This document shows positions 6,101 through 52,082 of a stretch of DNA of 64,000 bases, piece by piece. Source of the stretch: Undaria pinnatifida (lineage: Eukaryota > Sar > Phaeophyceae > Laminariales > Alariaceae). The position numbers and the translations under genes are program-made. Numbering within the stretch: position 1 is the first letter of the stretch; every line of letters begins with the position of its first letter. Location of the stretch: NCBI GenBank assembly GCA_012845835.1, contig JABAKD010000010.1:14007401-14071400 (forward strand), written 5' to 3'. The notes beneath the pieces are model-generated. The model saw only the letters and a program-made list of their open reading frames with translations, did no database searches and had not been told where the DNA came from.

Positions 6101-9100
6101 TGGGCGTTTTTCGCTGGGGGCATTGATATCGCACCTCAGTTATGAACCGGTCCCACACATCACATTATCTCTTTCTTCCATCCTCCCCTCCCCTCCCTCT
6201 ACCTATCTGATAGCGCACCTCAGTTGTGAACGTGTCCTCCTCTCCCCTCTTCCGTCCCCGCTCCCCGCTACTCTTCCCTTTCACCTCGCCGTTTGGAAAC
6301 CTTTCGTCTATATCTATCGTCTCCCCGAATCCCGAAACATTTTTAGTATACAAACTCCCAGTGAACGGTTCAGCTAATTCAGGGCGTTACCCGAAAAACG
6401 GTATATCGGGGTTGTTTTGTGCCATTTTCCGGTACAGAGGAAGTCTGTCACAAATACCACCCTGCAGGGGCTGCGTTCATTGGTCAAAGCACCGCTATGC
6501 CGGGATATGGCCCAAAAGGCCGGGTTACATCGGCTTATAGTCAATCACTTGCTCGGGTATCTTTTTTTTTTTCTGGCGATGAAGCGTTCATTTTCTGGAG
6601 TGCAGAGCACCGCTCGATACGGCTACCAGGCCGGGCAAAGTCCCGTGTCCCGAAAATGCTTAACTGCACGACAGATCAAATCCAGGCAACCGTTGAAACC
6701 GACGAGTCTACCGGAAATTCACGCCTGTGAAACCTCTCCCGCGGGTCTAGCTGTCTTGAGTGTAGCTAATAACGTGCCGAGATTTGAAGTGTTGCCTTTA
6801 TTCCTTGTTTATCCTTACGTATTTTGTTGAATGATTACCCTCTTTTTATCTCGTGCGGCTCTGCTCCTGCAGCGTTTCCTCCTCGGGCAAGCTGGGGCAG
6901 GACCTGACTTGGACGTTCTTCCAGGACAACTTTGAGAGGATCAAGACCATGCTCGCGAAGGCTTCCCCTTCCCTCATGGACGCGGTGATCTTGTTCTGCT
7001 GCGGCGGGTTCACCGAGGAGGGCAAGATGGAGGAGGTAAGCACTCTCTCACAGTAGTTGGGGCACGTTTTTTTTTTTGGCTTGCTTTTTTTTTTAGTCGC
7101 CGTGGTGCCGTGCGCGGCGTTCTTACTACTCATTATTTTCTTCCGCGAGTCGGACAGGTCAGATCCCTATTAAATGATCTATATGATCTATAGGATCTGT
7201 CTGGTCTATATGATCTGTATTATATGTATCATCTGTATTGTATGTATCATCTGTATGATCTATGTATTTCAGGGAAAACAGATCCCTGACGGATGCTACG
7301 ATAGAGGTATTTAGGTATACCTTTTTTTGGCTATTTTTTTTTTGTGAATGACGGGGCTCCTTAACCCAAAATCGTCGAAAAATCGGCCAAAAAAAAGAAC
7401 ATGATTCTCGTTGTGTAGCTAGGCCATGGGTATTTTTCATCCGGTGTACGAGTACAGTAGCGGTTTTGTTTTTCTCGAAGTCAGATTTTTTGGGAAAGGA
7501 CATGAAGGCTCCCAACTTGAGAAACCTCTATCGTAGCCCGAATTTCATTCCTTTTTTTTGCCGCTTTGATTTTGTTAACCTAGGCCATGGGACAGTTTCG
7601 TAGTGATACCAGGTACGCATGATTGGGTTTTTTCAACCGTTTCACCCCGGTGACGTCATTGTGACGTCATTGCGACGTCATTGTGACGTCGTTACGGGGC
7701 GCACTTCGACCGGTATGGTATTTCGTGTGGGTTAGGGTTAGGGTTAGGGAAAGTTCCATGATTTCAAAAATCCCAGTATGATGTCAGTCACCCCCGTGGG
7801 ATTGATGCTGATTGTTCATCGGGTTTCACCGTTGATTTTTATCAAAAATCAGATTTATGTGGGACTGTGATCCCTTTGTTCGTCGGTTTTCACGTTGATT
7901 TTTCTCAAAATCAGATTATGTGGAACTGTGATCCCTTTCGTAGCAGGTTTCTCTTCCTTAGTAAGATGTATGTTGTGGAGACTCGCCGAGGTGGGTTGTG
8001 TAGCCGCACTCTCGAAGGTCAACGGTGAGGAAACACCGCAGAGTTCCCCTCGAGGAGCCAGGATGGTCTTGAAAGATTATAGTGATAAGGAGGCGGTACG
8101 ATCTAGGGAACAGGGCCAGGTATCCACACTTATTAATAGAAAAAGAAAAAATAGTTCCCAAGTGGTTAGGAGCCTCAGAACGAAAAATCGTGCAAGTCTA
8201 CCGTAGCATGTATGTGTTCCATGGTCAAAATGATCTGCATGGTCTACAGATCTGCATGGTCTACAGATCTGCATGGTCTACAGATCTGCTTGGCCCATAG
8301 ATCTGCATGACCGATAGATCTTCATGTCCTATATATCTGCATGGCCTATATATAGATCTGCATGGCCTATATATATCTGCATGGCCTATAGATCTGCGTG
8401 GCCTATAGATCTGCATGGCCTATAGATCTGCATGGCCTATAGATCTGCATGGCCCATAGATCTGCATGGCCCATAGATCTGCATGGCCTATAGATCTGTA
8501 TGACCTATAGATATGCATGGCGCACAGATTTGCATGGCCTATAGATCTGCATGGCCTATAGATCTGCATGGCCAACCAATCTGCATGGCCAACCAATCTG
8601 CATGGCCAACCAATCTGCATGCCCTATAGATCTGCATCTCCTAAAGATCCGCATGGCCTATAGATCTTCATGGCCTATAGATCTGTATGGCCTATAGATC
8701 TTCATGGCCTATAGATCTGCATGCCCTATAGATCTGCATGGCCTATGGATTATGTTGCCGGGTGCCAACCGGACGGTCTAAATAGTCTAAACACCTGTTC
8801 CTGGGTTGGATGTGTACTACGCAGATCCAGCACACCATATCAATGCGATAGGTATAAAACCAGTGAATAGATTATCTAGATCGGGATCCATTCATAATTT
8901 ATTTAAATATAGATCGTGATCTGTGCTGTAGATGATCTAGATCGTGATCTATTAATAGACTATCTAGATCGCGATCCATTCGTAGATTATCTAGATCGTG
9001 ATCTATTTATAGATTATCTAGATCGTGATCCTTTCGTAGATTATCTAGATCGTGATCTATTAATAAATTATCTAGATCGTGATCCTTTCGTAGATTATCT

Positions 9101-16854: not shown

Positions 16855-18570
16855 AATTGTGGATGAGCTTAAGCAGTGGCTCCGGTGCAGACCACTGGGC
16901 TATGTCCCGTCTAGGTACGAAGTAGAGGAGGCGATCCGTGCGTTAACGAACCCAAAGGCGGTAGGGCCCGATGGCCTCCCCGCCGAGCTCCTGAAGATCT
17001 TGGCCGACGAAGGAGAATTGGACACGCTCGGAAAGTTTCCCGGTATCATCGTCGTTGTGTGGCGGGGAGGTGGCGTACCGCAACAGTGGAAAGATGCAAC
17101 GATTAAGGTGCTGCACAAGAAGAAAGTTCGGACAGAGTGTGGGCATCGCCCTCGTGGCTCACGCAGGCAAAGTACTCCTCAAAGTCATCGCGAGTTGCCT
17201 TAGTGACTACTGCGAACGCGAAAACATTTGCCGGACGAACAGTGTGGGTTCAGACCCCAACGCTCGAGGGTTGACATGATGTTGTTGCACGACGACACTG
17301 CAGAAACTGGCGCGGAAGGAGGACACCCTCCTTGTACTCTTGTGCTGTATCGACCTCACCAAAGCATATGACTCCGTCAACCGAACCCTTCTGTGGGATG
17401 CCCTTGCTCGTTTTGGCATGCCACCAAGAATGCTCGCCGTCATCCGCCAATTCCACGACGGCGTGCAAGCATGCGTGCGGTTGGGTGGTGGAGAATGCTC
17501 GGATAAGTTCGATGTAGGGCAAGGTCTCAGGTGCGTGCTCGCGCCACTGCGCTGTTCAACATGTTTTACATGGAGGTACTGCGTGTGGCCAAGAAACGCT
17601 CTCCTCTCTGATGCAGCCACCACGGACAACATGGTGCGGCTTCAACGAAATAACGAGAAAGGGGAGAAGAGAGGCCACACGACGCTCAGGCAAAGTCGAC
17701 GGGCGGGGGGGGAAGGAGGAGGAGGAGGTGCAGAGGTTGTGGGGTATGCTGTAGGCTGACGATGCGGGCATCGTGTCGCGATCATCAGTAGGGTTGGAGA
17801 GGATGATGACGGTGATCGTGACTGCGTGGTCGGCGTTCGGGCTTACGGTCTCCGAAGCCAAAACGGAGATCTTGTGTCTGCCGCGGACCAAAGGTGGCGG
17901 GGAGGTGTCGTTCGTCATCAATGCAGCCGGCCAGGTATACAAACAAACGATCGAGTTTGTGTACTTGGGCGGGGCTATCAGCGCACACAGAGACCTCAGC
18001 ATCGAGATCACGCGGCGTCTTCAGAGAGCCTGGGCGTGCTTCCAGCGGTACAAGATGGAAATCTATGATCGCCCGGATGTGCGCTTACGGTTGAAGATGC
18101 GGTTGCTGAAAGCTGAAAGGTGGTCGAGACACTGCTTTACGGTTGCATGGCGTGGAGCCCGAACAAGCTTGACTATGACAGGCTACGACGGGTTCACCAC
18201 TCCATGCTCCTCCGATGCCTCGGATGGCGGAAACGAAAAGCGTGACGACCACACCCTATCGTACGCCGATGCGCTTGCCAAGACAGCTTCCGAGAGCATA
18301 GAGGCGGTAGTGCGCAAACTGAGGAGGATGTTGTTTGCAGGATCCGTAGCACGTATGGGGGGGGGGCGTCTACCACACAAGGTGGTAGTGTTTGGGGAAC
18401 TTGTTGGAGATAAAGCTACCCAGGGGGGCAAGAGAAGGACTGGATGGTGCACCTGAAGGAGGATATGTCGGTCTTTGGAATGAAGTTCGAAGGGTGGCGA
18501 AATAATGCACAGAAGACCGGCAGATGGTTTCGACGGGTAGAGGAGGGCTCCTTCATGTGAAAATGACACA
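16855..18570 (+). pseudogene. Decayed non-LTR retrotransposon (LINE) reverse transcriptase
   Basis: Reverse transcriptase segments of the LINE type appear in order but in three frames. 'EEAIRALTNPKAVGPDGLPAE' with 'VPQQWKDATI' lies at 16920-17125; 'ALVAHAGKVLLKVIASCL' at 17130-17205; '[21 protein letters not shown]', holding the first catalytic Asp, at 17343-17405; and the A-D-D active-site motif at 17755-17763. The thumb and C-terminal part ('LTVSEAKTE', 'FVYLGGAIS', 'KLRRMLFAGSVARM') run to about 18400. Frame changes near 17130, before 17755 and beyond, together with a missing stretch around the QG motif, show an inactive copy. No endonuclease domain is seen upstream, so it is probably 5'-truncated. 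The 'LGH.ARM..RLP'-like tail suggests an RTE- or CR1-like clade, which I cannot settle. Confidence 0.85.
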
Positions 18571-18800: not shown

Positions 18801-20335
18801 GTCTGGCCATCATCGTCCCGAAGCTTGTGGGCCTTCCAATGGCCGTCACAAGTTACCGTAACGCCGGTCTGACTTTTTCGCCCTGTTGCGTTCCCCCTCC
18901 AGCGCCATTGATACACTTGATACCCTCTGTGAGCCCAGTGCCGTATTTAGTCAGTTCCTAGGGTCTACTAGTATGGTGTTTTGTTTTGTTTTTCTTTCCT
19001 TTCTTTGCTTCCCCTTCTTCTTGTCTTTTCTTTTCTTTTCTGTTCTTTTCACTTTGCCGTTTCGCTTCCTTTTCTTGTCTTGTCCTTTCTTTTCTAAAGA
19101 TTTATTGTCTTTTCTTTTTCTCTTTTTTTTTCCCCAGTTGGCTTGAGTCTGACGTGCGTACATGACGGACTCTTCGATAGCCCCCCCCCAAAACCAGCGG
19201 TTTTCTTTCACGAACGTTTGATGGCTGCTTGGCACGAAGAAGGATATGCTATAAACAAAATGTGTCCACATATTTTCTTGTTCTTTCAAAGGACTGTCGA
19301 TCGATGACGTCCGGGTGGCAAGGGGCACCGTATTTAAGTAGATACGGCCGGGAGAGCTGGTTTCAAAACCATCGATTTCGTTAAACAAACGTTAGGGGGG
19401 CTACCGTTAAACGACTCGTATGTATGCTAGGAATTTCGACTGCTTCGGCACTGGCGCCAAGTCCCCACATCGTCGATGGGTATATATATGTAGGTGACGC
19501 GTTTAATACTTTGGTGGTAGCATTGCAACGTGTTTGTTGTCTTTCTATGTATGTTGCCAATTTATAAAAAGACACTGCAAAAAAAAAAAGTTGATGCTGG
19601 GTGCTACCAACTATCGTAGTAAATTTGATCAAGTCTGGACGGCTAGAGACGCAAGACTGCAGGATATATAGAGCCAATATAGTTGGTCTCAAACAGGCGT
19701 TTAGACGCTCAGGTCTTCGTTTTTTCACCGGTATTCGTCAAACTTTTGGGGGGGGGCTATCGTAGAACGACTCGTATGCGTAGTGATAGATACCGCGTGC
19801 TATTTTTTATCAAAGTACATAAGTGGTACAAAGTAGTCTTCTGGGGTGGCAAGCGGTGTGTGTAGTCGGGCTTTTTCAGGCGCGAGTAGTGAGACGTATG
19901 TACCAGTAAAAGTATGAACCTGGCACGTCGCAGGCTGACTCTCCCGATTTCATTTTATGTTTTTATGGCGGAGGCAGTAGTTAGTTGCGTCTCAGCTATG
20001 ATATACGGGGTATGCGTGTACTTGTACCACTTTTGGTTTTGTTTGTGTTTTGTCCGGTATTCCTCCACTCCTCCAGAGTGATTGGAGCCTGTCCTGTGAC
20101 CACGGACTTGATTGTTCGAGTTAATGTGAGAACAACAACAAGTCGGAGGTGTGTGCCAGAGCAATGTGAAGCCGCCTTTTGACTTGAACAATCCAGGATA
20201 TATATTATGAAGGAATTTGCTCTCTTAGTCCTGTCATGCAATTTTGACCGCATAATATCGGGATACCGCCTTTTTTTATTCAGACCGCCTTCACATTGAT
20301 TGGGAGACCCCTGTTATTATATTCCTGCTGTACTG
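18801..20335. other. Intergenic, nothing recognised
   Basis: Pyrimidine-rich TTTTCTTTTC stretch at 18975-19140. No gene recognised. Confidence 0.5.
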
Positions 20336-21213
20336 TGTTAGGATACGGCCTCGAAAGCCTGTAATGATCTGAATTGAGATAATTTGACCGGGTTTCTCAT
20401 GATAAGGTTGGCGTTTTCTATTTGGGATAGCCAGGAAATAAAACGGCGGCGCGTGCCTGCGTTCTCAGAGGCCATCTGGGGCTCTGGTCTGGAAACTAAT
20501 AAAGCCACGTCTCTCCTAAGGCTTACAAAGTGAGTACTCTCCGAGGACCTGCTCAATTGGCAGACCTGCAGGTAACGTTCTGTGTCCCCGCCCTATACCC
20601 TTACAATATATGGCGTCGTCGGCAGGACCATGAGTTTGTGGTGGGTTCAAATCCCACCGTCCACAATAATAACCTTTTTCAGATCTTCCCCACATGTTTG
20701 CCTTGTTGTAGGGTCTGCGTTTCCTTCAACTGCTTTTTTTCGCGTGTTCCTGGCTCCATAGCCGGGCCGTTAGAGGTGTGGGAGCGGGGTTTGAGGAGCC
20801 GCATCTTCGACTCGTGGTCTAGTTCGTAGAACCGGAGTTTCACCGAACCTCCCATATTTCTGCATACATATATGCGGCTCATCAGGGTGGGCTATAGTGT
20901 TAAGATACGGCCTCGAAGAGCCTGTAAATATCTTAATTGAGATAATTTGGCCGGGTTTCGTATTATTATAAGGTTGGCGTTTTCTATTCGGGATAGTCAC
21001 GAAATAAAACGGAGGCGCGGTTGAAAAAAAAACTTGTCAGGACTGCAAAACGTTGCCTGCGTTCTCACAGAGAGGCCATCCGGGGCTCTGTCTGGTGGAA
21101 ACTAATTAAAAGCTACGTCTCTCTCCTAAGATCTTAAAGGGTAAGAAAAAGTGAGTACTCTCCGAGGACCTGCATGCAGGAGACTTTCTGTGTCCCCGCC
21201 CAATACCCTTACA
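20336..21213 (+). mobile_element. TRIM retrotransposon family A, complete
   Basis: Two direct LTRs, 20336-20605 and 20898-21213, both starting TGTTA(A/G)GATACGGCCTCGA and ending CCCTTACA. Directly after the 5' LTR is TGGCGTCGTCGGCAGG (20611), a primer-binding site because its complement would end in CCA. About 20 nt further is GTGGGTTCAAATCCCACCG, a tRNA T-arm with a Pol III B box. The 292-nt interior codes for nothing and ends in AGGGTGGGCTATAG before the 3' LTR. The element is flanked by ACTG on both sides, a 4-bp target duplication. TRIMs are known as tiny non-autonomous LTR elements mobilised by other elements' enzymes. The size, short LTRs, PBS and TSD all fit. Confidence 0.85.
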
Positions 21214-22194
21214 ACTGCACATACATGTTATTCGGACAAACTTTAACTTTTTGTACTTGATTATAATAATCGTCCACGTTTTGTTTTTCTTACAAGACAA
21301 TAATAACCGAATCTTCGTGCGTTTAACTGTTAATACGTTCCAATCGCTCGGAAGAAAAAAAAGGAGCAACAACATAATCACAACAACACAACCAACCGTA
21401 TGCGCGCACAGGACGTACTATTTTATACGTACTGCTACGAGTGAGTACGTAGCGCCGGTCGGCAGAGATTTTCGTAGCAGCACAACAAACAGCAAAGACA
21501 CAGACGACTTTATTTAACCAGTTGGACGTTTTTTTTCGTTTTTTTCATCCTCCGGCGGATCAGAAAAAATAAATCTTAAGCTCACCACACTTCCACGTAT
21601 TTTCGTATTGGACGCGCCACGAGGCGTGGGCCAGAACAATACAGACAGCAGCAGCAAGCAGCAGCAGCAGTATCTAGTAGTGCGCGTAGTAGTAGGTAGC
21701 AGTGTGAGCGCAGGAGGCAGGAGTAATAATGTATGTATGTGTATGTGTACAACTAACAGCAGACACGGTCCTCCTGCGCTTTCTTTGTGTTAATATAGTC
21801 TAGTGCAGTGCGAGGACGCAGCGTAGTTCGCATGCGGTGGAAAAATAATCGCCGCTTACTGATTGTTGCCACCACACCACCACGTCTCTTCCGCAGGCAG
21901 AGTACCGCACGATCCCCGAGATAGTTCAAGGTCACAAAGCGCGGGTGTTCTTATTATTATTGTTGTCGCAAGGCACCGGACCTTAATACAATGAGAGGGG
22001 CCTCTTATAGTTGCTGTATTATTGTCAAAACCAGACAACTTAGACTAATAAATACTCCGAGTACCTGGTAGAAAATAGTGAATTAGTTAACAAAAAATAC
22101 TAGATACACACAGACAGTCAGTACAATAGTATCAATAATAGTGCCACAACTAACTGTGTTGTTGAATTTCGAAGTATAGACTTAGATTAGACTA
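21214..22194. other. Intergenic, nothing recognised
   Basis: AGC-rich microsatellite near 21650-21670 and TACCTGGTA at 22062-22070. No gene recognised. Confidence 0.5.
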
Positions 22195-25354: not shown

Positions 25355-26035
25355 ATCGTCCCAATCGTTCGTCCGCTCTCCTATATTACCGACTTGGCTC
25401 GCCCCCAACCCCTCTCTCCTATCAGACCCCATGCACGCGTCCCCCCCCCCTCCCCCGCCCCTAATCTGACCCTGATACTTGTGTAGGTACAGCCCAGAAT
25501 AAGTCAGTTCGTTAAGAGATGTTCCCACCACGCGCTGTTCCCATCACACGCAGCAACATTGAAATTTATCCCCCACCCTTCACCCATTCGTTCAATCCGC
25601 TGCTGCTGTATATATGCGAATTGCCTCGTCCCTGACCCCCCTCTCTCTCTCCCCTCTCTCTCCTCTCTCTCCCTTCCACCGGCTGCCCCCTCCCCAGCGT
25701 GACCCTGACAATGATCTGACAGACATGCACGACAACCATTATCCCCCCCCCATACGACGACGTCCATGCATCAAGTCGATTGCCCCCCCTCGCTCCGCCC
25801 CGTTCCGTCCCGACCTAACCCTGATGCTGCAACCATCACGGCGGGATCCCGACAGCAGCTACTCTTACAACAGCTACCTCGGCAGTCAAAGTTAGCCTCC
25901 CACCCTCTCCTCAGTCGTTCGTCCGCTCGCGTATACATATTTTGAATTATATATCTGATTGTACCGATAGTGCCTCACACCTCCTCTCCTCTCCCCTCCC
26001 CTCCCCTCCCTACCCCATTACTGCGTCAAACTCGA
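25355..26035 (+). repeat. Degenerate tandem repeats duplicating the gene's 5' splice-acceptor region
   Basis: TCGTTCGTCCGCTC-type motifs recur at about 25365, 25585 and 25914, each followed by a pyrimidine tract (CTCTCTCCTAT, CTCTCTCCCCTC, CTCCCCTCCCC). The sequence GGGATCCC..CAGCA..TACTC.(T/C)ACAAC at 25853-25890 is repeated at 26038-26070 immediately before the start codon. Confidence 0.6.
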
Positions 26036-26076
26036 CAGGGATCCCAGCAACAACTACTCGCACAACGACCTATAGC

Positions 26077-26934
26077 ATGGCACTGACCGCTACCACTCCA
26101 ATCAGGAACGCTTTCTCCGGAGACTGCTCCAAGCCCAAGACTTCCCGCAGCAGCGCCCCCGACCTGTCCTACCTGCCAACCTACAACCACGTTGGTGGCC
26201 GCCCGGACGAGCGACTCGGCGCGCACGGCACCTTCCGCCCCGGCGTGCGTATCATGTCCGGCGGTCAAGCCCGCGACGTGCCTCTCGAGCCCACTCAGAC
26301 CAACGTCGGGAAAGTGCTCTTCGTGTCTTCGACCCACAAGCCCGACCTCTCCGGCGAGGCCCGCGTCAACGCCATCCGCCCCAACGAACGCCTGGGCTCG
26401 CACGGCCGGTTCACCCCCGGCGCCAAACGCTTCCTTGGGGGGAAGCCCCGCGACGTTCCCCTCAAAACCGAGCTCGACCATGGAAAAGTGCTGTTCGTTT
26501 CTTCCGTGCACAAGCCGGACATGACCTGCGCGGGCCGTACCAACCAAGTTCGCCCCACCGAGCGCCTCGGATTTGGCGGTCGGTTCACTCCGGGCGCCCG
26601 CCGTTGGCTGGGAGGAAAGCCCCGCGACGTCCCTCTCGCTCAGATGCGCGACCCCGGCACTGTAATCTTCCAGTCCTCGACGCTCAAGCCTGACCTCTCG
26701 GGGGAGGGCGAGACCAATGTGACCGGCGGGCGGGAGGATGAAAGGCACGGAAGGCTTGGGTCGTTCGAGCATGGCGTGGTGGAGGTGGCGGGGGGTCCGC
26801 TGCACATGCCGTCGGCGCAGGAGCTGGCGCTCTGGCAGGAGGCCGGGCAGAAGGAAAACCGGTACCGTCGCTGCGGGCCCAGCCACTTCGTCGCCGGGGT
26901 TTCCATCCTCTCTGGCGGCATGCCGGTCTACTGA
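26077..26934 (+). CDS. Unrecognised repeat protein, four ~55-residue units (paralogue of 60016-61263)
   Basis: 285 residues from ATG 26077 (first Met after the last acceptor-like AG) to TGA 26932-26934. I do not recognise the family. After about 38 residues come three close units and one diverged unit. Each has (V)(G)GRP.ERLG..G.F.PG, then a (I/F/W)(M/L)(S/G)GG turn, (A/P)RDVPL, a variable linker, then GKVLFVSS.HKPDLSGEAR.N. Unit 4 (about residues 217-285) keeps GGRE.ERHG and ends in a partial unit, FVAGVSILSGG. There is no signal peptide, membrane segment or cysteine pattern. The protein is basic and glycine/proline-rich, suggesting short strands and turns. The coding region is much more GC-rich than its flanks, supporting a real gene. 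A structural or cytoskeleton-associated role is a guess. Nothing nearby informs function. Confidence 0.8.
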   Translation: MALTATTPIRNAFSGDCSKPKTSRSSAPDLSYLPTYNHVGGRPDERLGAHGTFRPGVRIMSGGQARDVPLEPTQTNVGKVLFVSSTHKPDLSGEARVNAIRPNERLGSHGRFTPGAKRFLGGKPRDVPLKTELDHGKVLFVSSVHKPDMTCAGRTNQVRPTERLGFGGRFTPGARRWLGGKPRDVPLAQMRDPGTVIFQSSTLKPDLSGEGETNVTGGREDERHGRLGSFEHGVVEVAGGPLHMPSAQELALWQEAGQKENRYRRCGPSHFVAGVSILSGGMPVY

Positions 26935-29900: not shown

Positions 29901-30656
29901 GTGTCTTGGCTATTTAAATAGTAGTACCCAAGGTTGTAGCAACAATGTATTATTCTTGAAAAAATATTTTCTTCTGTTTTTCTTCGTTTTTCTCGAAACA
30001 TGTATGTATGTGCTGCTGCGATGGAGGTGGTGGCCTTTTCTTTCGCGCAAAACTGATTCTTGTGATAAATGACGGACGGACCGCTTTCTCCTTGCATGTT
30101 AACCGTCGGGGGAAATCGTCTGAAAGACACTGACTGGTGGTGCAATTCTTGTTTGTTGGCGCTCAAACACTACTAACTGTGTGCATGTTTGATTTTTTTT
30201 TGTGGAACACTTTGTGTGTCTTTGTGGTCATAGTGTCATGTTTTTTTTTGTTCGTCTGGGCCTTGCTCTTTCGTTCTACTATTATTAATACTACTAAAAA
30301 CGTTTTTGTTTGCGGGTGCGGCATACATAGAGCTCCTCTCAAGTCAATCACAAGCAGCCACCCCCCACCCCGCGAGGGGAAAAAAAAAAAAATGGTGCCC
30401 CTCTAGCTCCCGCGCTCTCTATTATTAGTAGCATGTTTCATATTATATCATCAAATAAACGCGATGTACGCTGTGCGCGCCAAACCAAAAAAACAGGTTC
30501 TTGTTAAGTGGTTTGTCTACGAGCGAGATGCAGAGCCACTCCCCCAAGAGAGAACCTTTCTCAATCATACCATTAATTATTAGTGAGAGCAAACGACGGC
30601 GTTCCCAAGGCTAGGTAGAGTTACGCCGGCGGCGGGGGGGGGGGGGGGGGGAGGTT
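26935..30656. other. Intergenic, mostly unique sequence
   Basis: Contains a 62-nt direct duplication (AAATGGAAACAATTCGGCTTG at about 27100 and 27167), a poly(C) run at 27497-27510 and a poly(G) run at 30635-30651. No gene recognised. Confidence 0.5.
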
Positions 30657-31119
30657 GACGCGTGCTACGACGATAGAAGAGGCGCACGAATTTTTTCTGA
30701 GGTTTTTCCTCGAAGTGTGGGAGCTTAATTAGACCCTCTCCACAAAAAAACTGATTTCGGGGAAAAAAAAGGTGCTATTACATATATATGCCGACCTATA
30801 TCCTTAATGAGGACACACAACCCGTAATACGCGCGATCGGAGTATCACACACAGCTTGCAAAGATGAGTTTCGACAAAATATTCGATCTCACAGCTGCTA
30901 GCTGCTGGAGTGTATTTTAATTTTTATAATATATATATACCGTGGACATGTATAATTTGCGAAAATATCCCATGTATGGCCTGATAGGTACACGACGAAA
31001 AATCAAAACCAAAACCAAAAACTGGCCGATTTTTTTCCGACGATGAAATTTGGGTTAATTAAGGAGCCATTTATTTCACACCAAAAAAAGCGCTACCACC
31101 TCCCATCGTGACACGCGTC
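30657..31119 (+). mobile_element. MITE (ACGCGTGCTACG family) carrying a nested insertion
   Basis: Left end GACGCGTGCTACGACGATAG and right end CCTCCCATCGTGACACGCGTC. Left-half blocks (TTTTTTCTGAGG, TGGGAGCTTAATTAG, ACTGATTTCGGGG) and right-half blocks (GGTACACGACGA, ACTGGCCGATTTTTT, GGTTAATTAAGGAGCC) are separated at about 30786-30945 by sequence of another repeat family. Confidence 0.8.
30786..30945 (+). repeat. Long-TIR repeat fragment nested in the MITE
   Basis: GCCGACCTATATCCTTAATG, GCGCGATCGGAGTATCACAC, the hairpin motif and GGAGTGTATTTTAATTTTTA follow the same order as the right terminal repeat of the 52.1-54.9 kb element, here interrupting a MITE. Confidence 0.75.
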
Positions 31120-31449
31120 GGGTACCCTCCTCCCGTTTTCCACTACCAGGTTTGAGCCAGTCGTAGGAGTGGCTCTGTACCCTCATCCTGTGACAGAAAA
31201 TGCTTCGCTTTAACGCGATTGGTTTGGCGCAGCGCAGCGCAGCGCAGCTACATGTGATGACCGTTCCGTTGTGGGCTCATATATAGCCAAACTATAACAC
31301 AAAGAAACAGGGGGGGGGGGGGGGGGGAGCGTCCCTCGCGCGAGGGCCCCCCGAGTCACTGCAAAAGAATGCCGTCCCACAGGTGTGACCCCCTTACTCT
31401 TTTAGCCTTGATCGTATTTATCATGCCCTCCAGGGCTATTATTATTGTT

Positions 31450-31570
31450 GTGACCCGTGCTACTACGATAGAATGAGAAACATCCTTTTTTCGTCTGAAA
31501 TGTACCATGTCTTTTTTTCTGAACGACGGGCCACCTTTTAACCCCAAATCCTCGGAAACTTGTCAAAATC
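31450..31570 (-). mobile_element. MITE fragment, ACGCGTGCTACG family
   Basis: CCCGTGCTACTACGATAGA, then CTGAACGACGGGCCACCTTT and AACCCCAAATCCTCGG. Only one end is present; the rest is lost beyond about 31570. Confidence 0.6.
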
Positions 31571-32948
31571 AAAATATTGTATTGTTTTGTTGTTTTTGGT
31601 GCAGTTTTATTATTGTGCGCCTTGTTTTTAGGCCTACGATGAAGGCCATACTTCAGTGTAAGGGGTTTCGTTCACTGGTTGTTGTGTCACGCTTTTGAGT
31701 TCCTCCGAACCAGTTTTTTGGGCGAAGTGTATACGTAGATTGCTCCCCCTAAATCAAGTGAACCGCCGCGCTCAAACAACAAGAAAGGGCGCACCCCCCT
31801 CGCCTACCGTATATAGTACGTCGTCGTGTAAGAGTTGAAGTTAAGTTTACAAGGCAACGTTAAGCTTTCATGTGACTGTGGTCGATTTAAGGGTGGTAGA
31901 GTGTTCAGGGTCGTCCCAACGGTATGGATAGGGGGTGCAGCGCGGAAACTTTCTGAGCTCTCCTCTACTCGTAGCATACGTAATAAGAAGCTCAACTATG
32001 TCCACCCGACACACGACTTTGGAAGGCGTTCGCTTGCGCAATCCGACCTCCAACAGCTGTATCTCTTTGCGCTAGTCCTAAAAAACCAATCATTATCGCG
32101 AAAGTATCAGAATAACCGGTGGTTCTTCGCTCGAGGAGCTTAGCACACCTTTTTTTTCGAACGGCCGCACTCCCGATATGGGGACAAAACACTTGGATTT
32201 AGAACAGGATCGTTTTTTAGGAAAGTCGGAAATAGGTTAACCGACCAGAAACGAATGGCCCCGAGAATTGCAACCACCTCTTGCCGTGTGGGTTGACTCC
32301 CAAACCGTATATGATACGTATAACACTGCCCGCACACAACAACAGTGTAGGCTTTTGTAGCTATCGCACGTACTGCACAGAAAAAATCCAAGCGTCTCCT
32401 CGCTACTATATACCTATTCTCGGTTTTTGTTCCCGAACTGGATTATTTTGGGGCACGATCGTGTCGTTTGGTTCGGCCCTATATAGCGACCTCCTAGTGA
32501 CCTGCTGCGATTTTTTGAGCAGGTCAAGGCTGTGGCAGGGCCCCCCGCGGGTGCCTGCTGTTTTCGTTCGCTTGCCGGTTTTGGGCCGCACACTCTCGCC
32601 CCCCCGATTGACTCTGCATATCTCACTGTGCAAAAAAAATGTATTTCTCCGTAGTAGGGCGATGACTCGTCATCCCACGGTAGCCCAGGGGTGCGTGCAG
32701 CAGTTTCTGAGAAGTTTCCTGCGCTCCCAACACTCGAGGAGCTCAATATCTCACCTCTGCCGAAACACATGGCTCTTGTCGAAGGTGCGTTCTTTCGCGC
32801 AATATCCAAACCCAAAACACTTACTTAGAAACCGTCTGCACGTCAGTGTTCCAAAAAAAACAAACGGATACCCGCGCAAAATGATCAAACGGATAACCGG
32901 CCTGAGGAGGTCAGACCCGTCAAAAAAAGAAAAAAAAAAAAATCTCCC
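31571..32948. other. Intergenic; open frames but no recognised gene
   Basis: Overlapping open frames on both strands (for example 32281-32973 plus and 32414-32815 minus) show no known domain and no splice context that I can defend. Confidence 0.4.
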
Positions 32949-33205
32949 GACGCGTGCTACGATGGAGGTCTAGGTAGCAGTTTTCGTGCGAAATGTTTTC
33001 GTGAATGATGACGGGGCTCCTTTAACCCACAATCATCGGAAAAAAAAAAAAATCAGCCATTTTTTCTTCTTTTTGCGTAATTCTCGTGGTGTGCCTAAGG
33101 CCATATGCATGGGATTTTTCATCCGGTCTAGCTCGCAGTTTTATCTTTTTCTCTTCGCCAAAATCAGTTTTTTGGGAGAAGGTGTCTTCAAGCTCGAAGA
33201 GTCTC
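32949..33205 (-). mobile_element. MITE, 3'-truncated, ACGCGTGCTACG family
   Basis: Starts GACGCGTGCTACGATGGAGG, has CGGGGCTCCTTTAACCCACA, AATTCTCGTGGTGTGCC and CTCAAGCTCGAAG-like blocks, and then diverges before the expected second terminal repeat. Confidence 0.7.
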
Positions 33206-33404
33206 GCCCCAATGGTGGAGGATGGTGGCATGAACCTCAGATAAGGGCTTGCGGGCTGCACACTTCTTCCCCTCCGATGCCGGGTGTCGGCTTGGGTGGG
33301 CTAGTGCCCCGCACCGAAAGTAATGCCTTGGGTGGGCTCGCTTTCACCCTTTGCCGACTTTTGCGATGTTCGCGCACACGGGCCACGTATGAGGCTTGAC
33401 GACC

Positions 33405-33698
33405 GACGCGTGCTACACGATAGAGGGTGCAAACCACATATTTTCTGAGCGAGGTTTTCCTTATTTTTCGAGCTTGAGGAGACCTCTCATCCCGAAAACT
33501 GATTTGGAGAAGGAGAAAACAAATCTGCTGCGGCGGATGAAAAGTCCCGTAGCATGGCCCCTAGGGTACACAACGAGAATTACCTGGGCAAAAAGAAGAA
33601 AAATGGCCAATTTTCCGACGATTTTGCCCAGGTTAAGAAGCCCCGTCATTCAGGAAAAATGTCACACGAAAACTGCTACCTCTCTCGTAGGACGCGTC
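33405..33698 (+). mobile_element. MITE, full length, ACGCGTGCTACG family
   Basis: GACGCGTGCTACACGATAGAGG at the left and CTACCTCTCTCGTAGGACGCGTC at the right. The interior is in the same orientation as the 14902 copy. It lies about 200 nt from a truncated copy in opposite orientation. Confidence 0.8.
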
Positions 33699-33719
33699 TT
33701 TTTTTACTCCTTCCAGGAG

Positions 33720-36562: not shown

Positions 36563-37246
36563 CTCTCGAGGCGCGGCCGTGGCCCGTTGACTTTCAAGCC
36601 ACCGCCGCCCCTCGATAGTTTCCCGTTCTTTTTCTGGGTTTTTACGAGGTTTGGAGTTTTTGCCTTTGGGTTGTTCGTGGTGTTTCGAGCGTTCTTTTTT
36701 TACTGGGTGTGGAGAGCTTTTAACCGTTTTTTCCTTAGTCCCGTCGGCAACCCCCCCGCCCTGTGCCGGGTCAGGGTCCGGGTGTTAACGCCGCTATCTG
36801 AGGCGTAGGACTGCCGGATTTCGTGTTTGTCCAAGTTTGCTCTGCCGACGCCTTCCTCAAGCAAGAGCCCGGGGGGGGGGCAGGGTGCCCTGTTCGCGAA
36901 TAACGTCGTACAGGGCTACATATGTGGCTGCGTTTCATCTTTTAATTTTTTTGTGTTGTATTTGTTCTACTTGTTTCGGCTAAACACTCCTCCCCCTCGC
37001 GGGGCTGTAGGTGGTGTCACCTTCCATTCCGGGTATTTGTCGCTTCCTTGTCTAACCCCCGCCGTGCCAATGGTCCGCGGGAGGTTTTTGGCTTGACTTC
37101 TCCCTTGTTTTAGCGCCTGTGTTGCCCTTCCTTTCGACAAAGGTTTGCCTTGCCATATAATGCCTTTTCTGTTGTTTGTTAGCCGTAGAGCCTTTTCTGC
37201 CCCCCCCCCGCCACACCGGCTGTACGCGACAGGTTTTTGATGGGTC
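36563..37246. other. Downstream flank of the retrotransposon, possible LTR
   Basis: T-rich with a G run at 36871-36880. No gene. It may include LTR sequence, but no second copy exists in the window to prove it. Confidence 0.4.
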
Positions 37247-37710
37247 GTTTGCCTTGTTGTAGAGTCTGCGTTTCCTTCAACTGCTTTTCTTCGCGTTTTC
37301 CTGGCTCCATAGCCAGACCGTTAGAGGTGTGGGAGTGGGTTTTGAGGAGCCGCATCTTCGACTCGTGGTCTAGTTCGTAGAACCGGAGTTTCCCCGAATC
37401 TCCCATATTTCTGCATACATATACGGCTCATCAGGGTGGGCTAGTGTTAAGGTACGGCCTTGAAAGGCCTGCAATTATCTGATTTGATAGACAATTGGCC
37501 GTTTTCGTATTATATGCCGGCGTTATCTATTAGGGGTAGTCAGGAAATGAAACTGAGGCATGCGCCTCTCGGCTCTCAGTTGCTATCCGGGGCTCTGTGG
37601 AAATACTAAAGCTTATTCTCTACTCTACGGCTAAGAAAGTGAGTGCTCACCGAGGACCTGCTCAATAGGCGGACCTGCAAAGGGGGACACTCTGTGTCCC
37701 CACCCGAACA
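37247..37710 (+). mobile_element. TRIM family A, 5'-truncated (interior plus 3' LTR)
   Basis: Interior sequence from TTGCCTTGTTGTAGAGTCTG to CATCAGGGTGGGCTAG matches the 20.3 kb element. It is followed by one LTR at 37445-37710 (TGTTAAGGTACGGCC..., ending near CCCGAACA). The 5' LTR and PBS are absent. Confidence 0.8.
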
Positions 37711-39184
37711 ACTCAAGACCAATTTGAGGGAAAGCCTCGGAAAAGAAGTGGTGCGCATCTCTATCGTGCAGTGTAGCACACTTTCTGATTCTGAAAGTAA
37801 GTGCAACAACACACTCCTATAGGTAGCCGTGGGACGACTCCGATCGGTTTGGCGCAGCCAAGCTAACCATTCCACATGGCATGAGGCCGGTGTCAAAATT
37901 GCAAAAAAAAAAAAAAAAAGCAAACAAAAGGAACAGCGGGGCCACTCGCGCGCAAGTGACCCCGACCCCACCATACTCCAGGCGCCCAAAAGATTACTCC
38001 GGGGGCGCCCCTGTATCGCAACACCTTGGGTCGAAAGTTTTCCGTCTCTTTCCGAGTGCCGAGAGTAGTGCACTATTTTCGAAATCCTACAACACAGTAA
38101 ATTCGCTACTCGATTTGAGACGATCCCCTTTTTGTGGGACAAAAAAAATGTTCCCAAAAGCTGGCATTTATTTTGTGCGAATCTCTAGAAGAATTTAGAC
38201 ACGATCGCCTGTCACTCCGTTCAGGCCTAGCCTCCTCCATGCCAAAACAGAGGGAAAGCGGTGGAAACATGCAGCAGAGAGTTGCGCAAGACCTCGCTCA
38301 CATCGACGAGGGCTAAACCCTGCACCACCCCTGGTGCTGGGCCCCATTTCAATCCCGGGGACGGGCATCGCGCTGAAGCGCGGAGTTTAAATCCCCGGCG
38401 AGGACCACCTACCTGCCTCGGAGCAGGAAGACTCATCTATCCCACTACTTACATTGGAAATGGTGGGCGGTGGCGGCGTAGAATAATACTGTATAGATAC
38501 GGTAATTTAATCCTAACCACCTGTCGCTAAATGATTGTTTCTCGGTAATCTGGATTTTTGAGTGGTTTGATGTCTCGGATTTTATGGATGTGGATTTTCT
38601 AATGATGTTCCACAGAGCACGCTGTGAAGGACTTGTCGAGACAGAAACTAAAACCCCTCGGATACTCCTGAAAGTATCACACTATTATACGACAAGTGAG
38701 ATACCTCTCGATGACAAGAAGGCTGCTGCTACTGCTACTGCTGGTTTTATTGCTGTGGATTACACACACAAAAAAAAATGAGCAAAAAAAGGCGATGAAT
38801 GGATCACACAAAAAGTCGACGAAAGACTAATCATCGGGGTGTGGTACGTGTTCCTGGTAACATAAGCCAGCAAGTAGTTAACGCACCCCCCCCGGATGAA
38901 TCTCCACTTTTCCTCCCACATAAAATGTTATGATTTTCTTGTAGGTGTTTCCCTTTTTACCTGGCAGACGTCATCGCCTGTCCCCGGACGAACGTCTCCA
39001 CCCCCCCGTCGGCCAGGAAGCATCCGGCGGACGCCAATCAACTAACACCAGAGAGATATAGCATCCGAACAACCCTCGCGTGAGTGACCAGCACAAAGCC
39101 AGAGGCACTCCCGTATATATAGCAGTAGTAGTTGGTCCCTAGGTCCATGTGGCCCAATCTCACTACACACATGGAGGTCACACA
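37711..39184. other. Intergenic; two weak tRNA-like B boxes
   Basis: Near 38340-38415, CATTTCAATCCCGGGG and GAGTTTAAATCCCCGG resemble T-arm/B-box sequences 50 nt apart, the second followed by CGAGGACCACC. No convincing A box or cloverleaf was found. No other gene seen. Confidence 0.35.
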
Positions 39185-40335: not shown

Positions 40336-41770
40336 CGAGCGGCACCCGAAGTCCATTACCTGTGTTCCGATGCCTCGGCACGCATGCGTAACAATAGATA
40401 CGAATGATACACACATGCCTTGGTTCCTGTATAGCCGCCTGATAATACTGGGTGGTACTGTTATGACTTGAGGAGCGGTCGAAAGATGCAGATCCCACAG
40501 CGGCAATATAGCGAATGATGAATAGCAGAACCAATCATAGTACATCCAGAAACGATCGGACATGGCGGCTCATCAAAACTGCAACCAGGAAACATAGCGA
40601 TACAGTTGCGGCTACGTGTTGGTTATTCTGTTACTCACACGAGACCATGTATGCCCTGTTTTAGCTACCAAATACAGCATATAACACAACTCGCGAAGAC
40701 ACGCGCGATCGGGGGGTATCCCACACAGCTTGCAAGCTAAAGATAAGTTTCGATGGAATCCTCTATCCCACAGCTGCGCAGTACCAGTAGTAGTAGTGTG
40801 TTTTTAATTTTTTGTGTATAGCACCGTGTGCTACTATACAACGGGACAGAGAACGTACTAATTTAGTGCTGCCGTAAGGGTAAACCGCGCCTCATTTTTG
40901 AGAGGCTCTCCCGTCAATCAAGGAGGTATAATACGTACAGAGCTTGAGAACTTTCACCCAAAACCTTGCGGTGAGAAAAAACGTGAGCGCTCGTACACAA
41001 CGCGACGAATCATTAATTTCAACGCAATTTATGAATAGTGGGCCAGGTTTGTGCAAAGAAGTCGACGAAATGAAAGTGCACCCCCCCGATACGAATAATA
41101 ACAATAAATTCAACATTGACGAGGGCAATATACGATATTATTACACCGGTTTGTACCTGCTGAGATGAAAGGACTCGCGAGGGGAAAAGAAAGTTAAGAA
41201 ATGGTTGGCAGGGGGTCATGGGATAGGAGAGACATTTATCTTATGTTCTCGAGTACCGGAAAAGATATTCGATTCAAATACAAGTATAATATAGGATGGG
41301 AAATGCTTGGCGCAGAGGGTTATAGGAGAGACATAGACTATATATATTACACCGCTTTACGGAGGGATACTTGATATATACTTCGTATAACGCAACGCCA
41401 TAGTCTATGTCTACGCTATGTTGTCTCGGAGGTAAAATGAATAAATAATGATGATTTGGATGCAATAATGGGTCAGGTTTGTAGCGACACGAAAGTGTCA
41501 CCCCCCACCTGATCGATGAGTAATGATGCAATGGGTCAGGGTACTGTTACGATTTTTCTCTTATACTACTACTGTTGTTGTGCACGTACATACCGCTTTT
41601 TTTGTTCAATCATCACTTTTACTCTTCTTCTCCCAGCTCAACCCGTAAGACCTCATCGAGACCTTTTTCTGAACAAAGCCGCGGTCACATGTAGTACGAG
41701 GTACGTAGGTGTCTTCCCTCCTCCCCGCCCCCGACGCGTCGTGCCTTCATACTTATCGCGCATGGGGTTC
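40336..41770. other. Intergenic
   Basis: One hairpin-motif copy at about 40715-40780 (plus). No gene recognised. Confidence 0.5.
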
Positions 41771-42399
41771 TGGTGTAAGGCTTAGTTTGGGTAAACAACT
41801 AGTCTGTTTGGTTAACATTTATTGCAAGTGGTCAAACGGACAAATACCTGTCAAGATACGAATTTGATGTCATTTGGATGGGTTTTGTATGAAAAGGTTG
41901 GCGTTTTATATTCGGGATAGTCAGGAAATAGATCGGAGGCACGAGCCTCCGATCCCAGAAGCCATCCGGGGCTCTAGAAGGCTCAGAAAGTTGAGTACTC
42001 TCCGAGGACCTGCTAAATTGGCAGACCTGCAGCAGGGGGCACTCTGTGTCTCCGCCCAATAACCTTACACTATGGCATCGTCGGCAGGACCACTTATACC
42101 TTTAACAAATGACGTCGTCGGCAGACCATGGTGTTTTTGGGTCGTGGATTCAAATCCCACCATCCCCAATAATAAACTTTTTCAGACTTTCCCCCTGATC
42201 GAACTTGAAAAATACTTTTCCCGGTATCCCCAGGAAATAAAACAGCTTGATATTGACAGGTCCGCCCGTATATCCGGCCCACACCTGCTATCCCGCCGTT
42301 TCAGGGGGGAGGAGTGTTGTAAGGCTTAGTTTGGGTAAGCTATCGGTCAACCTTTTGCAAGAGTTATTGGTCAAACGGACTAATACCCCACTAATTTCA
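41771..42399 (+). mobile_element. TRIM family B with a family A insertion in its 5' LTR
   Basis: The B 5' LTR starts at about 41771 (GTGTAAGGCTTAGTTTGGG) and is interrupted at AATACC, resuming at CCACTTATACCTTTAACA near 42091. Then follow GACGTCGTCGGCAGACC (PBS/A box) and GGATTCAAATCCCACCATCC (T-arm). The short interior ends in the polypurine TTTCAGGGGGGAGGAG, and the 3' LTR starts TGTTGTAAGGC at 42315 and fades near 42399. LTRs of this family are only about 84 bp. Confidence 0.8.
41849..42091 (+). mobile_element. TRIM family A LTR plus PBS, nested in family B
   Basis: LTR from TGTCAAGATACG (41849) to CCTTACA (42069), followed by TATGGCATCGTCGGCAGGA. Only the LTR and the first bases of the interior are present, so the insert is a truncated A copy. 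Confidence 0.7.
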
Positions 42400-42526
42400 G
42401 CATTATTCCCACTTTTCTGTTTTTTGTGCTCGAGATCGTTGATTTGCTAGATAGACCATATATTAATATTGCATCTAGATAGTAGGTCTTGGATTGGAAA
42501 ATGGTTGGCAGAGTCTTAAGAAGAGA

Positions 42527-43436: not shown

Positions 43437-43819
43437 TGATAAGGTATTAGTGGGGTATTAGTCCGTGTGACCACTTGCAAAAGGTTGACCATAATAATAG
43501 CGTACGTACCGTAACTAGGCCTTAAAACACCCCCCCCCTGAAACGGTGGGATAGCAGGTCGGCCGGATATACGGGCGGACTTGTCAATATCCAAGCGGTC
43601 TCATTTTCTGGGGATACCAAGGAGAGTATTTTTCAAGTTCGACATGGTGAAAATGCCCGAAAACAGTTTATTCGTGGTGGATGGTGAGATTCGAACCCAC
43701 GACCTCAAAAACCCATGGTCTGTCGACGACGCCATTTGTTAAGGAATTAGTGGGTATTAGTTCGTTTGGTCACTTGCAAAAGGTTAACCAATAGCTTACC
43801 CAAACTAAGCCTTATAACA
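43437..43819 (-). mobile_element. TRIM family B, complete
   Basis: On the minus strand the 5' LTR is 43737-43819 (83 bp) and the 3' LTR 43437-43529. Next to the 5' LTR is the PBS/A box (complement of GTCGACGACGCCA), then a T-arm GTGGGTTCGAATCTCACC. A C-rich plus-strand run, polypurine on the element's own strand, precedes the 3' LTR. CTAA flanks both sides, a 4-bp target duplication. Whole element about 383 bp, no coding capacity. Confidence 0.85.
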
Positions 43820-44339
43820 CTAACGCGCGCCAAGCCCATCGATCTAAGGGTACGGGATGTTATGTTTCCACGAGTCCACACCCTCCATCGCGAGACAAAC
43901 CGGACTCAGACCATAACATAATAATAGTGTACGTATAACGGTCGACCTCGGTGGTCGTTGTGCACCCAACGGACAAGTATTTTTAGTAATATTTAAGGCC
44001 CTAAAACCTTGACCGACTGTTCAACCGTTCTAAGGTCTGACCAGTGTCGCAATCGAGCAGTTAGTTGCGACCAAAGATGTCAGGAGACGGGTGTCAAACC
44101 GTTCGTTCCACACACAAAAATCTACTAGTTTGGAATCAGACAAGGTAGATTTGGCGAAAATAGCCGTCGGTCAAGGGATGAAAGTGCCGTCTCCTGAGAT
44201 CTTTGGTTGCGACCTACCGAGCCCAAGACCATATCTTCTGTCGTAGCTGACCTTTCAACCATGATGGCCATTTTCTCGGCGCAGTGAAAGTACAGGTACC
44301 AGCTGATGAACCACCACGCCGTCATCGCAGGCTTGCTTG

Positions 44340-44755
44340 TGTATTAAGGTATCAGTGGGGGCAAGGAATTAGTGGGGTATTAGGTATTAGTCCGTTTGAC
44401 CGCTTGCAAAAGGTTAACCGATAGCTTACCCAAACTAAGCCTTACAACACTCTTCCCCCCTGAAACGGCGGGATAGCAGGTCGGCCGGATATACGGGCGG
44501 ACCTGTCAATATCCAAGCGGTTTCATTTCCTGGGGGATACAGGGGAGAGTGTTTTTCAAGTTCGACATGGGGGGAAAAGTCTGAAAAAGTAAAAAGTTTA
44601 TTGTTGGTGGATAGTGGGATTTGAACCCACGACCCAAAAAAACCATGGGGTCTGTCGACGACGTCATTTGTTAAGGTATTCGTGGGGTATCAGTCCGTTT
44701 GACCACTTGCAAAAGGTTAACCGATGATAGCCTACCCAAACTAAGCCCTACAACA
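44340..44755 (-). mobile_element. TRIM family B, with internally duplicated LTR
   Basis: 5' LTR (minus) at 44669-44755 and 3' LTR at 44340-44449, the latter containing a duplicated AAGGTATCAGTGGGG/AAGGAATTAGTGGGG segment. It has the same PBS, T-arm (GTGGGTTCAAATCCCAC on the minus strand) and polypurine tract as other B copies. CTTG flanks both ends. Confidence 0.85.
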
Positions 44756-44888
44756 CTTGGATGGTTCGAGCCGGCCGCACAAACCTCGGCCGATTTTGAA
44801 AATAGCATGAACCGCGAAAAGGAGGATGCGCGAATACTCATTCGCACCCCTCGCCCCTCCCCCGCGAAAATGCCGGGTGGAAGGCGTT

Positions 44889-51477: not shown

Positions 51478-52036
51478 TGTTGAGGAATTAGGTGGGGTAT
51501 TAGCCCGTTTGACCACTTGCAAAAGGTTAACCAATAGCTTACCAAACTAAGCCTCCTATAACACTCTCTCCCCCTGAAACGGCGGGATAGCAGGTCGGCC
51601 AGACATACAGGCGGACCTGTCAATACATTCAAGCCGTTTCATTTCCTGGGTATACCGGGGAGAGTATTTTTCAAGTTCGACATGGGGGAAGTCTGAAAAA
51701 GTTCATTATGGTGGATGTGAGATTTGAACCCACGACCCGAAAAACCCATGTCCTGCCGACGACGCCATTTGTTAGGTTATAGGTGGGGACACAGAGTGCC
51801 TCCTGCAGGTCTGCCAATTGAGCAGGTGCTCGGAGAGTACTCACTTTCTTTTCCTTCGTAGAGACGTTGCTTTATTCGATTCCACAGAGCCCCGGATAGC
51901 TTCTGAGATCGGAGGCACGTGCCTCCGATCTATTTCCTAACTTTCCCGAATATAAAGCGCCAACCTTATCATACGAAACCCATCCAAATGATCTCAAATT
52001 CGGATAATTACAGGCCTTTCGAGGCCGTATCGTAAC
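51478..52036 (-). mobile_element. Hybrid TRIM: family A LTR at one end, family B LTR and interior
   Basis: On the minus strand a family A LTR (51770-52036) is followed by the shared PBS/A box, the B T-arm and interior, the B polypurine tract, and a family B LTR (51478-51563). No matching flanking duplication (GGGG against TGCT). Confidence 0.8.
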
Positions 52037-52082
52037 ATGCTGCTACTAGTTAAGCTGTTCGGAGTTTGTTGTGCGATATTAC

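Follow-up and report, generated by a model that had tools for sequence, protein, structure and literature searches.

How two families of miniature LTR elements with unrelated LTRs came to carry one and the same module behind those LTRs, and what the module does there, is the question raised by the 64,000-nt stretch of DNA analysed here (hereafter the window). An earlier note on this DNA had described a primer-binding site (PBS) followed by a T-arm-like hairpin behind the LTRs of both family A and family B, and had read the two parts as the A box and B box of an internal Pol III promoter that doubles as the priming site. We examined the module in the window and in the whole genome (511,146,479 bases in 68 contigs), which is that of a eukaryote, perhaps a brown alga or kelp judging by its size and the style of its sequence.

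Direct reading of element A (also A1; 20336-21213) revealed a complete short LTR element with TG...CA ends. It has the features of a TRIM, namely short LTRs, TG...CA termini, a target-site duplication, a PBS, a PPT-like tract and no coding capacity (Table 1). No ORF of 150 aa or more was found in 20336-21213, and the purine tract AGGGTGGG, PPT-like on direct reading, precedes position 20898. The two LTRs share an identity of 0.926 over ungapped columns (71.6% in gapped BLAST), and the element's own 3' LTR is the nearest to its 5' LTR when 19 other A LTRs are compared. The internal region is a mosaic, in which a match to the B leader follows the PBS and an A-type 3' end starts at 20696. A genomic search with this internal stretch returned 3611 candidates, and the 40 that were scored comprised the element itself and at least 39 others at 90-95% identity, covering only the 3' internal part and including window 37247-37443. 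A candidate autonomous partner for family A is the coding element that ends at 37.7 kb, with 94% identity to the 3' region of element A; the integrase-like ORF at 34613-35206 matched Pfam rve with an E-value of 5.4e-7 and 30.2 bits, under the cut-off of 32.6, and had 732 relatives in a protein search, while elsewhere in the genome pieces of window 30000-37440 sit between A LTRs. No such partner emerged for family B. The window also holds a reverse transcriptase-like fragment at 17280-18456 (RVT_1, E 8e-4, under the cut-off), probably a broken non-LTR element, two related ORFs with GGRPTERLGSRGSFTPG-type repeats (25825-26934 and 59848-61263), and internal tracts of the telomere-like TTAGGG type at 375-445, 7711-7766 and 39984-40051.

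Table 1. Positions in the window of element A and of the related copies discussed in the text.
Feature	Position	Strand	Remarks
Target-site repeat ACTG, left	20332..20335	.	repeated at 21214-21217
5' LTR of element A (TGTTA...TTACA)	20336..20605	+	direct reading, BLAST, LTR comparison
18-nt PBS, exact complement of tRNA-Ser(AGA) 3' end plus CCA	20611..20628	+	
Family B leader piece inside element A	20629..20695	+	about 67 nt matching B leaders
T-arm hairpin GTGGG-TTCAAAT-CCCAC, fits B-box consensus	20641..20657	+	
A-family 3' internal region, PPT-like end	20696..20897	+	94% to window 37247-37443
3' LTR of element A	20898..21213	+	
Target-site repeat ACTG, right	21214..21217	.	pair of left ACTG
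3' terminal part of A-type coding element: pre-PPT region plus 3' LTR	37247..37720	+	integrase ORF upstream at 34613-35206
B copy, its LTR holding an A LTR and PBS (42073-42090)	41768..42420	+	B PBS 42110-42127, T-arm 42144-42160; ends approximate
B copy	43437..43821	-	T-arm 43700-43684
B copy	44360..44758	-	T-arm 44630-44614; 3' end approximate
Chimera: A 5' LTR, PBS 51767-51750, B leader and internal region, B 3' LTR	51478..52037	-	

A host tRNA complementary to the PBS, which the earlier note had proposed looking for, does exist. Over all 18 nt, the PBS TGGCGTCGTCGGCAGGAC pairs exactly with CCA and bases 73 to 59 of the host tRNA-Ser(AGA), and it ends before A58. Within the window, CGTCGTCGGCAG with at most one mismatch occurs seven times against 0.18 expected. 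A tRNA pattern run over the genome, GTCGTCGTGN{48,78}CTGYCGACGACG, gave 28 matches (0 and 2 in the controls); two are not tRNA (C38:5261337 and C38:5261445) and 26 are tRNA-like. Six of these are tRNA-Ser genes whose anticodon is AGA, and contig C24 holds five of the six. The AGA gene whose flanks were read (L059) is without CCA and has a T run after its 3' end. In a paper that treats this step, tRNA-Ser is listed as a primer of retroviruses and of some LTR transposons, and in HIV-1 plus-strand strong-stop synthesis ends before A58 owing to m1A58 (PMC13191261). Other LTR families in this genome have the same tRNA-Ser PBS (L020, L024, L028, L035-L037 and L054), and no T-arm was present in the 80-95 nt that follow it there. 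The loci L035-L037 hold an LTR-type unit of a further kind, arranged head to tail with a period of 776 bp.

The PBS of family B often departs from this primer at one place. Among the first-listed 100 of 3466 modules made of PBS and T-arm, 78 have GACAG in place of GGCAG (scored by eye, all on contig C1), and GACAG is a mismatch to tRNA-Ser(AGA), which demands GGCAG. A pattern search of the genome found no host tRNA for the GACAG-type B PBS among tRNAs beginning GTCGTCGTG, and the tRNA copies linked to B LTRs (L016, L060 and L043, described below) are tRNA-Ser(AGA)-like. As copying of the primer is expected to renew the PBS each time, GACAG needs another primer or a master-copy explanation.

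The second half of the module, the T-arm hairpin, is a feature of family B, which is tiny and non-autonomous. The B LTR measures about 90 bp and the LTR-internal unit 288 bp, SMART elements being near 290 bp. This period was read in a family B tandem array (L007:392-1163 and L013:7119-7967), beside which (L013:6906-7052) a B leader continues into a B LTR in inverted orientation. Six matches to GTGGGTTCRAATCCCAC (up to three mismatches) lie in the window against 0.33 expected, all of them downstream of a PBS except the one at 17244. Four strict T-arms (5 bp, TTCRANY loop, G53-C61) were counted in the window, each behind a PBS, compared with a mean of 0.12 and a largest count of 1 in 50 mononucleotide shuffles of the window; genome-wide, the pattern GGCGTCGTCGRCAGN{10,36}GGTTCRANYC, which joins PBS and T-arm, had 3466 matches (1704 + 1762) against 0 for the reversed control. 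These counts show that the T-arm is not a chance sequence, and we likewise confirmed that the unrelated LTRs of families A and B precede one PBS and T-arm module. Sharing of the module is real, but its description as common property of both families did not hold with respect to the T-arm, which belongs to B and is absent right after the PBS in 24 of 30 A-LTR joins. A PBS without T-arm was also seen at the B-like LTRs of L016, L040, L043 and L060 and at partial LTRs in L024 and at 47.1 kb of the window. The viral contigs gave no match, none of seven pattern stretches there being confirmed.

If the hairpin is active at all, it would most likely be so in B RNA, by tRNA mimicry near the primer site. 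A reading along these lines, in which the T-arm is kept in the B leader as an RNA mimic of tRNA that recruits the primer, Gag or a synthetase, and may have been picked up by template switching from a packaged tRNA, is compatible with the explanation that we favour below; we regard it as possible while leaning somewhat against it. The tRNA T-loop consensus is TTCRANY, degenerate at positions 57, 59 and 60. In 20 B-type copies, chimeras included, loop columns 54, 55, 56 and 58 are invariant (identity 1.0) and columns 57, 59 and 60 stand at 0.49, 0.49 and 0.52, so that loop variation is confined to the places that are degenerate in tRNA T loops, a pattern that may nonetheless stem from few independent changes. 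Besides, all 14 aligned leaders (two from A1 and A/B chimera copies) fit TTCRANY in the loop, 12 of the 14 have the complete 5-bp stem, and every one allows an additional helix of 3-5 bp when bulges are chosen freely. What speaks against mimicry is that conservation of the whole T-arm does not exceed that of the remaining B internal region (0.867 vs 0.878, and 148 of 306 windows equal or surpass it), that single-sequence folds of five modules were no more stable than those of shuffles, and that Rfam, run on one B leader, gave no tRNA match, its five weak hits lying far under the cut-off (lowest E 0.0029, tmRNA T-arm). Given a presumed resemblance to the T-arm of B, tRNA-Lys is no more than a conceivable source of it.

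The sequences that follow the PBS in A-type copies were compared across the window and loci L009-L058, where 66 A-LTR ends, duplicates included, reduced to 30 distinct A-LTR/PBS joins; the B half of this listing was badly set and returned one B join only. Six of the 30 lead into B leader or internal sequence (L038, L041 minus, L046 plus, L057, and window 20611 and 51767) and four into antisense tRNA (L025, L039, L048 and L058). A-internal fragments follow in eight, at eight different points (L015, L019, L022, L023, L029, which is inverted, L030, L052 and L056), a piece of A LTR in one (L046 minus), and pieces of B LTR in two (L041 plus and window 42073), while the remaining nine match no reference used (L014, L031, L032, L034, L044, L047, L049, L053 and L055), the post-PBS sequence of L014 recurring in L021. 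The 18-nt PBS is kept with at most one mismatch in 27 of the 30, L041 minus having a B-type PBS. Twenty of the 30 joins lie in loci retrieved with a pattern in which the PBS is fixed as far as base 15 (240 places, control 0); a break at an earlier base would be invisible in those 20, where bases 16-18 alone count as free evidence. Two of the ten joins fetched without the fixed-PBS pattern, L022 and L023, break after 12 nt of the PBS. An A-rich stretch of about 8-16 nt stands right after PBS base 18 in nine joins (L030, L031, L032, L041, L046, L049, L052, L053 and L056), ahead of different sequences, and may be a leader remnant or an untemplated addition.

Elements with LTRs of two families form a further class. 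An A 5' LTR is combined with a B 3' LTR at window 51478-52037 and in L038, L046 and L057, and the reverse arrangement, a B 5' LTR with an A 3' LTR, was found in L040. These mixed elements match the prediction of a second-strand transfer between two cDNAs. When LTR pairs were compared over ten A elements, the own partner was the nearest in four; the LTRs of A1 are mutually nearest, so A1 itself is not a product with unequal LTRs.

We consider it likely that the module consists of a tRNA-Ser(AGA) PBS, used by A, B and other LTR families, lying beside a T-arm-like hairpin of the B leader, and that the PBS acts as a hinge. Plus-strand strong-stop DNA would normally end at the last PBS base because the next tRNA base, A58, is presumably methylated in this species. 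Such DNA, made of LTR plus PBS, might then anneal to the cDNA of another element, jump to an internal site, or run on through the tRNA. In this way the hinge would place A LTRs before the B leader, the arrangement seen in the six joins above, could yield elements with unequal LTR types, and would leave antisense tRNA copies after LTRs; copies of this kind are present. The sharing of the module by A and B would then be due to recombination at the PBS, and element A may be an A element whose leader was replaced by that of B, most simply through one minus-strand template switch.

Ectopic DNA recombination in the shared PBS could also give chimeras, and it may be proposed that such recombination, or nested insertion, rather than reverse transcription, accounts for both the A/B sharing and the chimeric elements. 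An A LTR with its PBS does lie inside a B LTR at window 42073-42110, and the PBS and leader do form a tract common to A and B. Nevertheless, we judge this explanation unlikely, because it leaves unexplained why many unrelated sequences are joined on directly behind PBS base 18, and why antisense mature tRNA, with CCA and changes at modified sites, stands at the same place.

The promoter reading proposed in the earlier note, an internal Pol III promoter common to two TRIM families, fares worse still, and we hold it to be very improbable. The B box fits GGTTCRANYC and is abundant genome-wide, and in two of the three B copies scanned the LTR contains an A-box-like TGGTCAAACGG that precedes the B box by 75-78 nt. 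However, the proposed A box is the tRNA-Ser PBS, whose complementarity to a tRNA 3' end accounts for the match to the A-box consensus. Moreover, the spacing from PBS to B box is too short, runs of four to seven T intervene between them in all three B copies scanned, 24 of the 30 A-LTR joins have no B leader directly after the PBS, and ARAGORN and Rfam at its gathering threshold gave nothing in the window. On these sequence features (PBS identity, spacing, T runs and joins without B leader), a Pol III promoter would have to be set aside as the main reading, and with it the idea of an A box that serves also for priming.

The firmest result concerns something beyond the module itself, namely the genomic copies of the primer tRNA. 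Starting from the 26 tRNA-like matches, 18 full-length copies were compared with the six AGA genes, after two matches had been set aside: C24:6755695, which lies in the gene cluster and lacks CCA, and C38:3620362, a diverged copy that has CCA and the anticodon CGA. All 18 copies differ from the AGA genes at position 26 (A in 16, C in one, T in one) and at position 34 (G in 17, C in one), and 14 of them differ at position 58 (T in eight, a deletion in three, G in two, C in one), compared with a mean of 0.56 of the 18 changed over the other 77 tRNA positions; at position 34, a CGA isoacceptor may be the source of the single C, and among the G copies C26:15199265 has the same extra loop base as the G-reading C24:6755695. 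The latter, inside the AGA gene cluster, has an extra anticodon-loop base and G at 34 (GGA) together with gene-like G26 and A58, and may be either a gene variant or a retrocopy. CCA, matched by place, directly follows the discriminator in 15 of the 18 copies and in none of the six AGA genes, the copies without it being C27:1925691, C27:18219227 and C30:1399177. In the four of the 18 copies whose flanks were examined, an LTR comes directly after CCA (B at L016 and L060, A at L061 and L062). At L016 the B LTR passes into the PBS and on into a complete antisense tRNA-Ser reaching base 1, 86 nt long with CCA according to ARAGORN and scoring 39.3 bits against the Rfam tRNA model, and at L060 AGCTAG flanks the LTR-tRNA unit on both sides, which is established for that locus only. 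Partial copies have T (L025, L048 and L058), G (L043) or A (L039) at position 58, and G at position 34 in L025, L043 and L058, L048 stopping at about that point and L039 having a different anticodon region. Antisense copies of tRNA-Ser(AGA) come after both A and B LTRs, and it is on this presence in two LTR families, together with the differing states of bases 26 and 58, that independence of the copies is assumed; binomial figures for the changed positions presuppose it and serve as description only. That the copies with a GGA anticodon are simply nuclear tRNA-Ser(GGA) genes is barely credible, for although the L016 copy scores as a tRNA and C24:6755695 also reads G at 34, the CCA of 15 copies, the LTR straight after it in the four examined and the varied state of base 58 (T, G, C or deleted) all speak against it.

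The positions that changed are those expected to bear m2,2G26, I34 and m1A58, modifications that we infer to be present in this species as well. In the accessible part of a study of fission-yeast tRNAs, reverse transcriptase misincorporation is described at m1G9, m2,2G26, m3C32, A34I and m1A58, A34I being uniformly efficient with tRNA-Ser(AGA) among the cases (PMC4697793). Neither position 9 nor position 32 is changed in two or more of the 18 copies, and the gene base at 32 is T. For m1A, arrest plus misincorporation is described in the available text of PMC4787781, with a preference for dATP when the context is m1A-U; the main change at 58 in our copies corresponds to A inserted opposite (T in the tRNA strand), with G as the 3' neighbour, unlike the U of that study. 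These sequences have the features of products of read-through into the primer tRNA: CCA in 15 of the 18, an antisense position directly after an LTR in all four examined, and changes at sites expected to be modified.

Several known systems resemble parts of this picture. TRIMs are alike in having short LTRs, a PBS, a PPT, a target-site repeat, no coding region and a length under 1 kb, but A1 is a mosaic of two families, the A-type joins lead mostly into private sequence, and B has a T-arm hairpin after the PBS. Cassandra TRIMs, which contain a 5S-like Pol III promoter, are also tiny LTR elements, and in the part of PMC7215508 considered here they form tandem arrays, as B does with its LTR-internal units; in B, however, the tRNA-like arm is in the leader and not in the LTR. 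At the Rfam gathering score, the window contains neither a 5S rRNA-like promoter, as in Cassandra, nor a hammerhead ribozyme, as in retrozymes. HIV-1 strong-stop arrest at m1A58, as excerpted from PMC13191261, is comparable in that the PBS ends one base before A58 and read-through lengthens the tRNA copies, but here the read-through products are fixed in the host genome, some extending to tRNA base 1. Circular retroviral DNA with tRNA between LTRs (Colicelli and Goff 1986, as cited in the available text of PMC12220202) and reverse-transcribed tRNA-Gly beside HIV proviruses (same text) likewise join tRNA sequence to LTR or proviral DNA, whereas this genome holds many primer copies, most with CCA and with changes at modified sites. 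Asymmetric-LTR HIV-1 proviruses (PMC9278108) and alternative second transfer (PMC5651808), in the portions of these papers at hand, also involve unequal LTRs in one provirus, but the two LTRs described here are from two different families. The main text of a paper on Ectocarpus transposable elements, as far as it was accessible, reports LTR elements of 3.9-14.5 kb and has no occurrence of 'primer binding' or 'tRNA', and its uses of 'trim', among the matches listed, concern methylation or trimming and no miniature elements (PMC12477816). In the open PMC literature, among the matches listed, no LTR-linked genomic copies of a primer tRNA that record modification sites were reported.

Overall, this genome is probably a heritable archive of failed plus-strand strong stops, in which reverse transcriptase passed m1A58 and copied the mature primer tRNA as far as base 1, the LTR-plus-tRNA DNA integrated as a mini-element, and the copies record m2,2G26, I34 and m1A58 as they were at copying; the same hinge would join strong-stop DNA to other templates and so build new non-autonomous LTR elements. 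What is known of the strong-stop rule (arrest before m1A58) and of its failures comes mainly from work with retroviruses in culture. Judging by the insertions in this genome, the same rule is obeyed by an LTR retrotransposon remote from retroviral culture; the insertions also show the outcome when the strong stop fails and mark bases of the primer as modified without RNA data, while the PBS joins show a route to miniature elements and cross-family chimeras. If this is true, the tRNA copies are a natural tRNA-modification sequencing experiment preserved in DNA, and such fossils could map tRNA modification in lineages in which it has never been measured.
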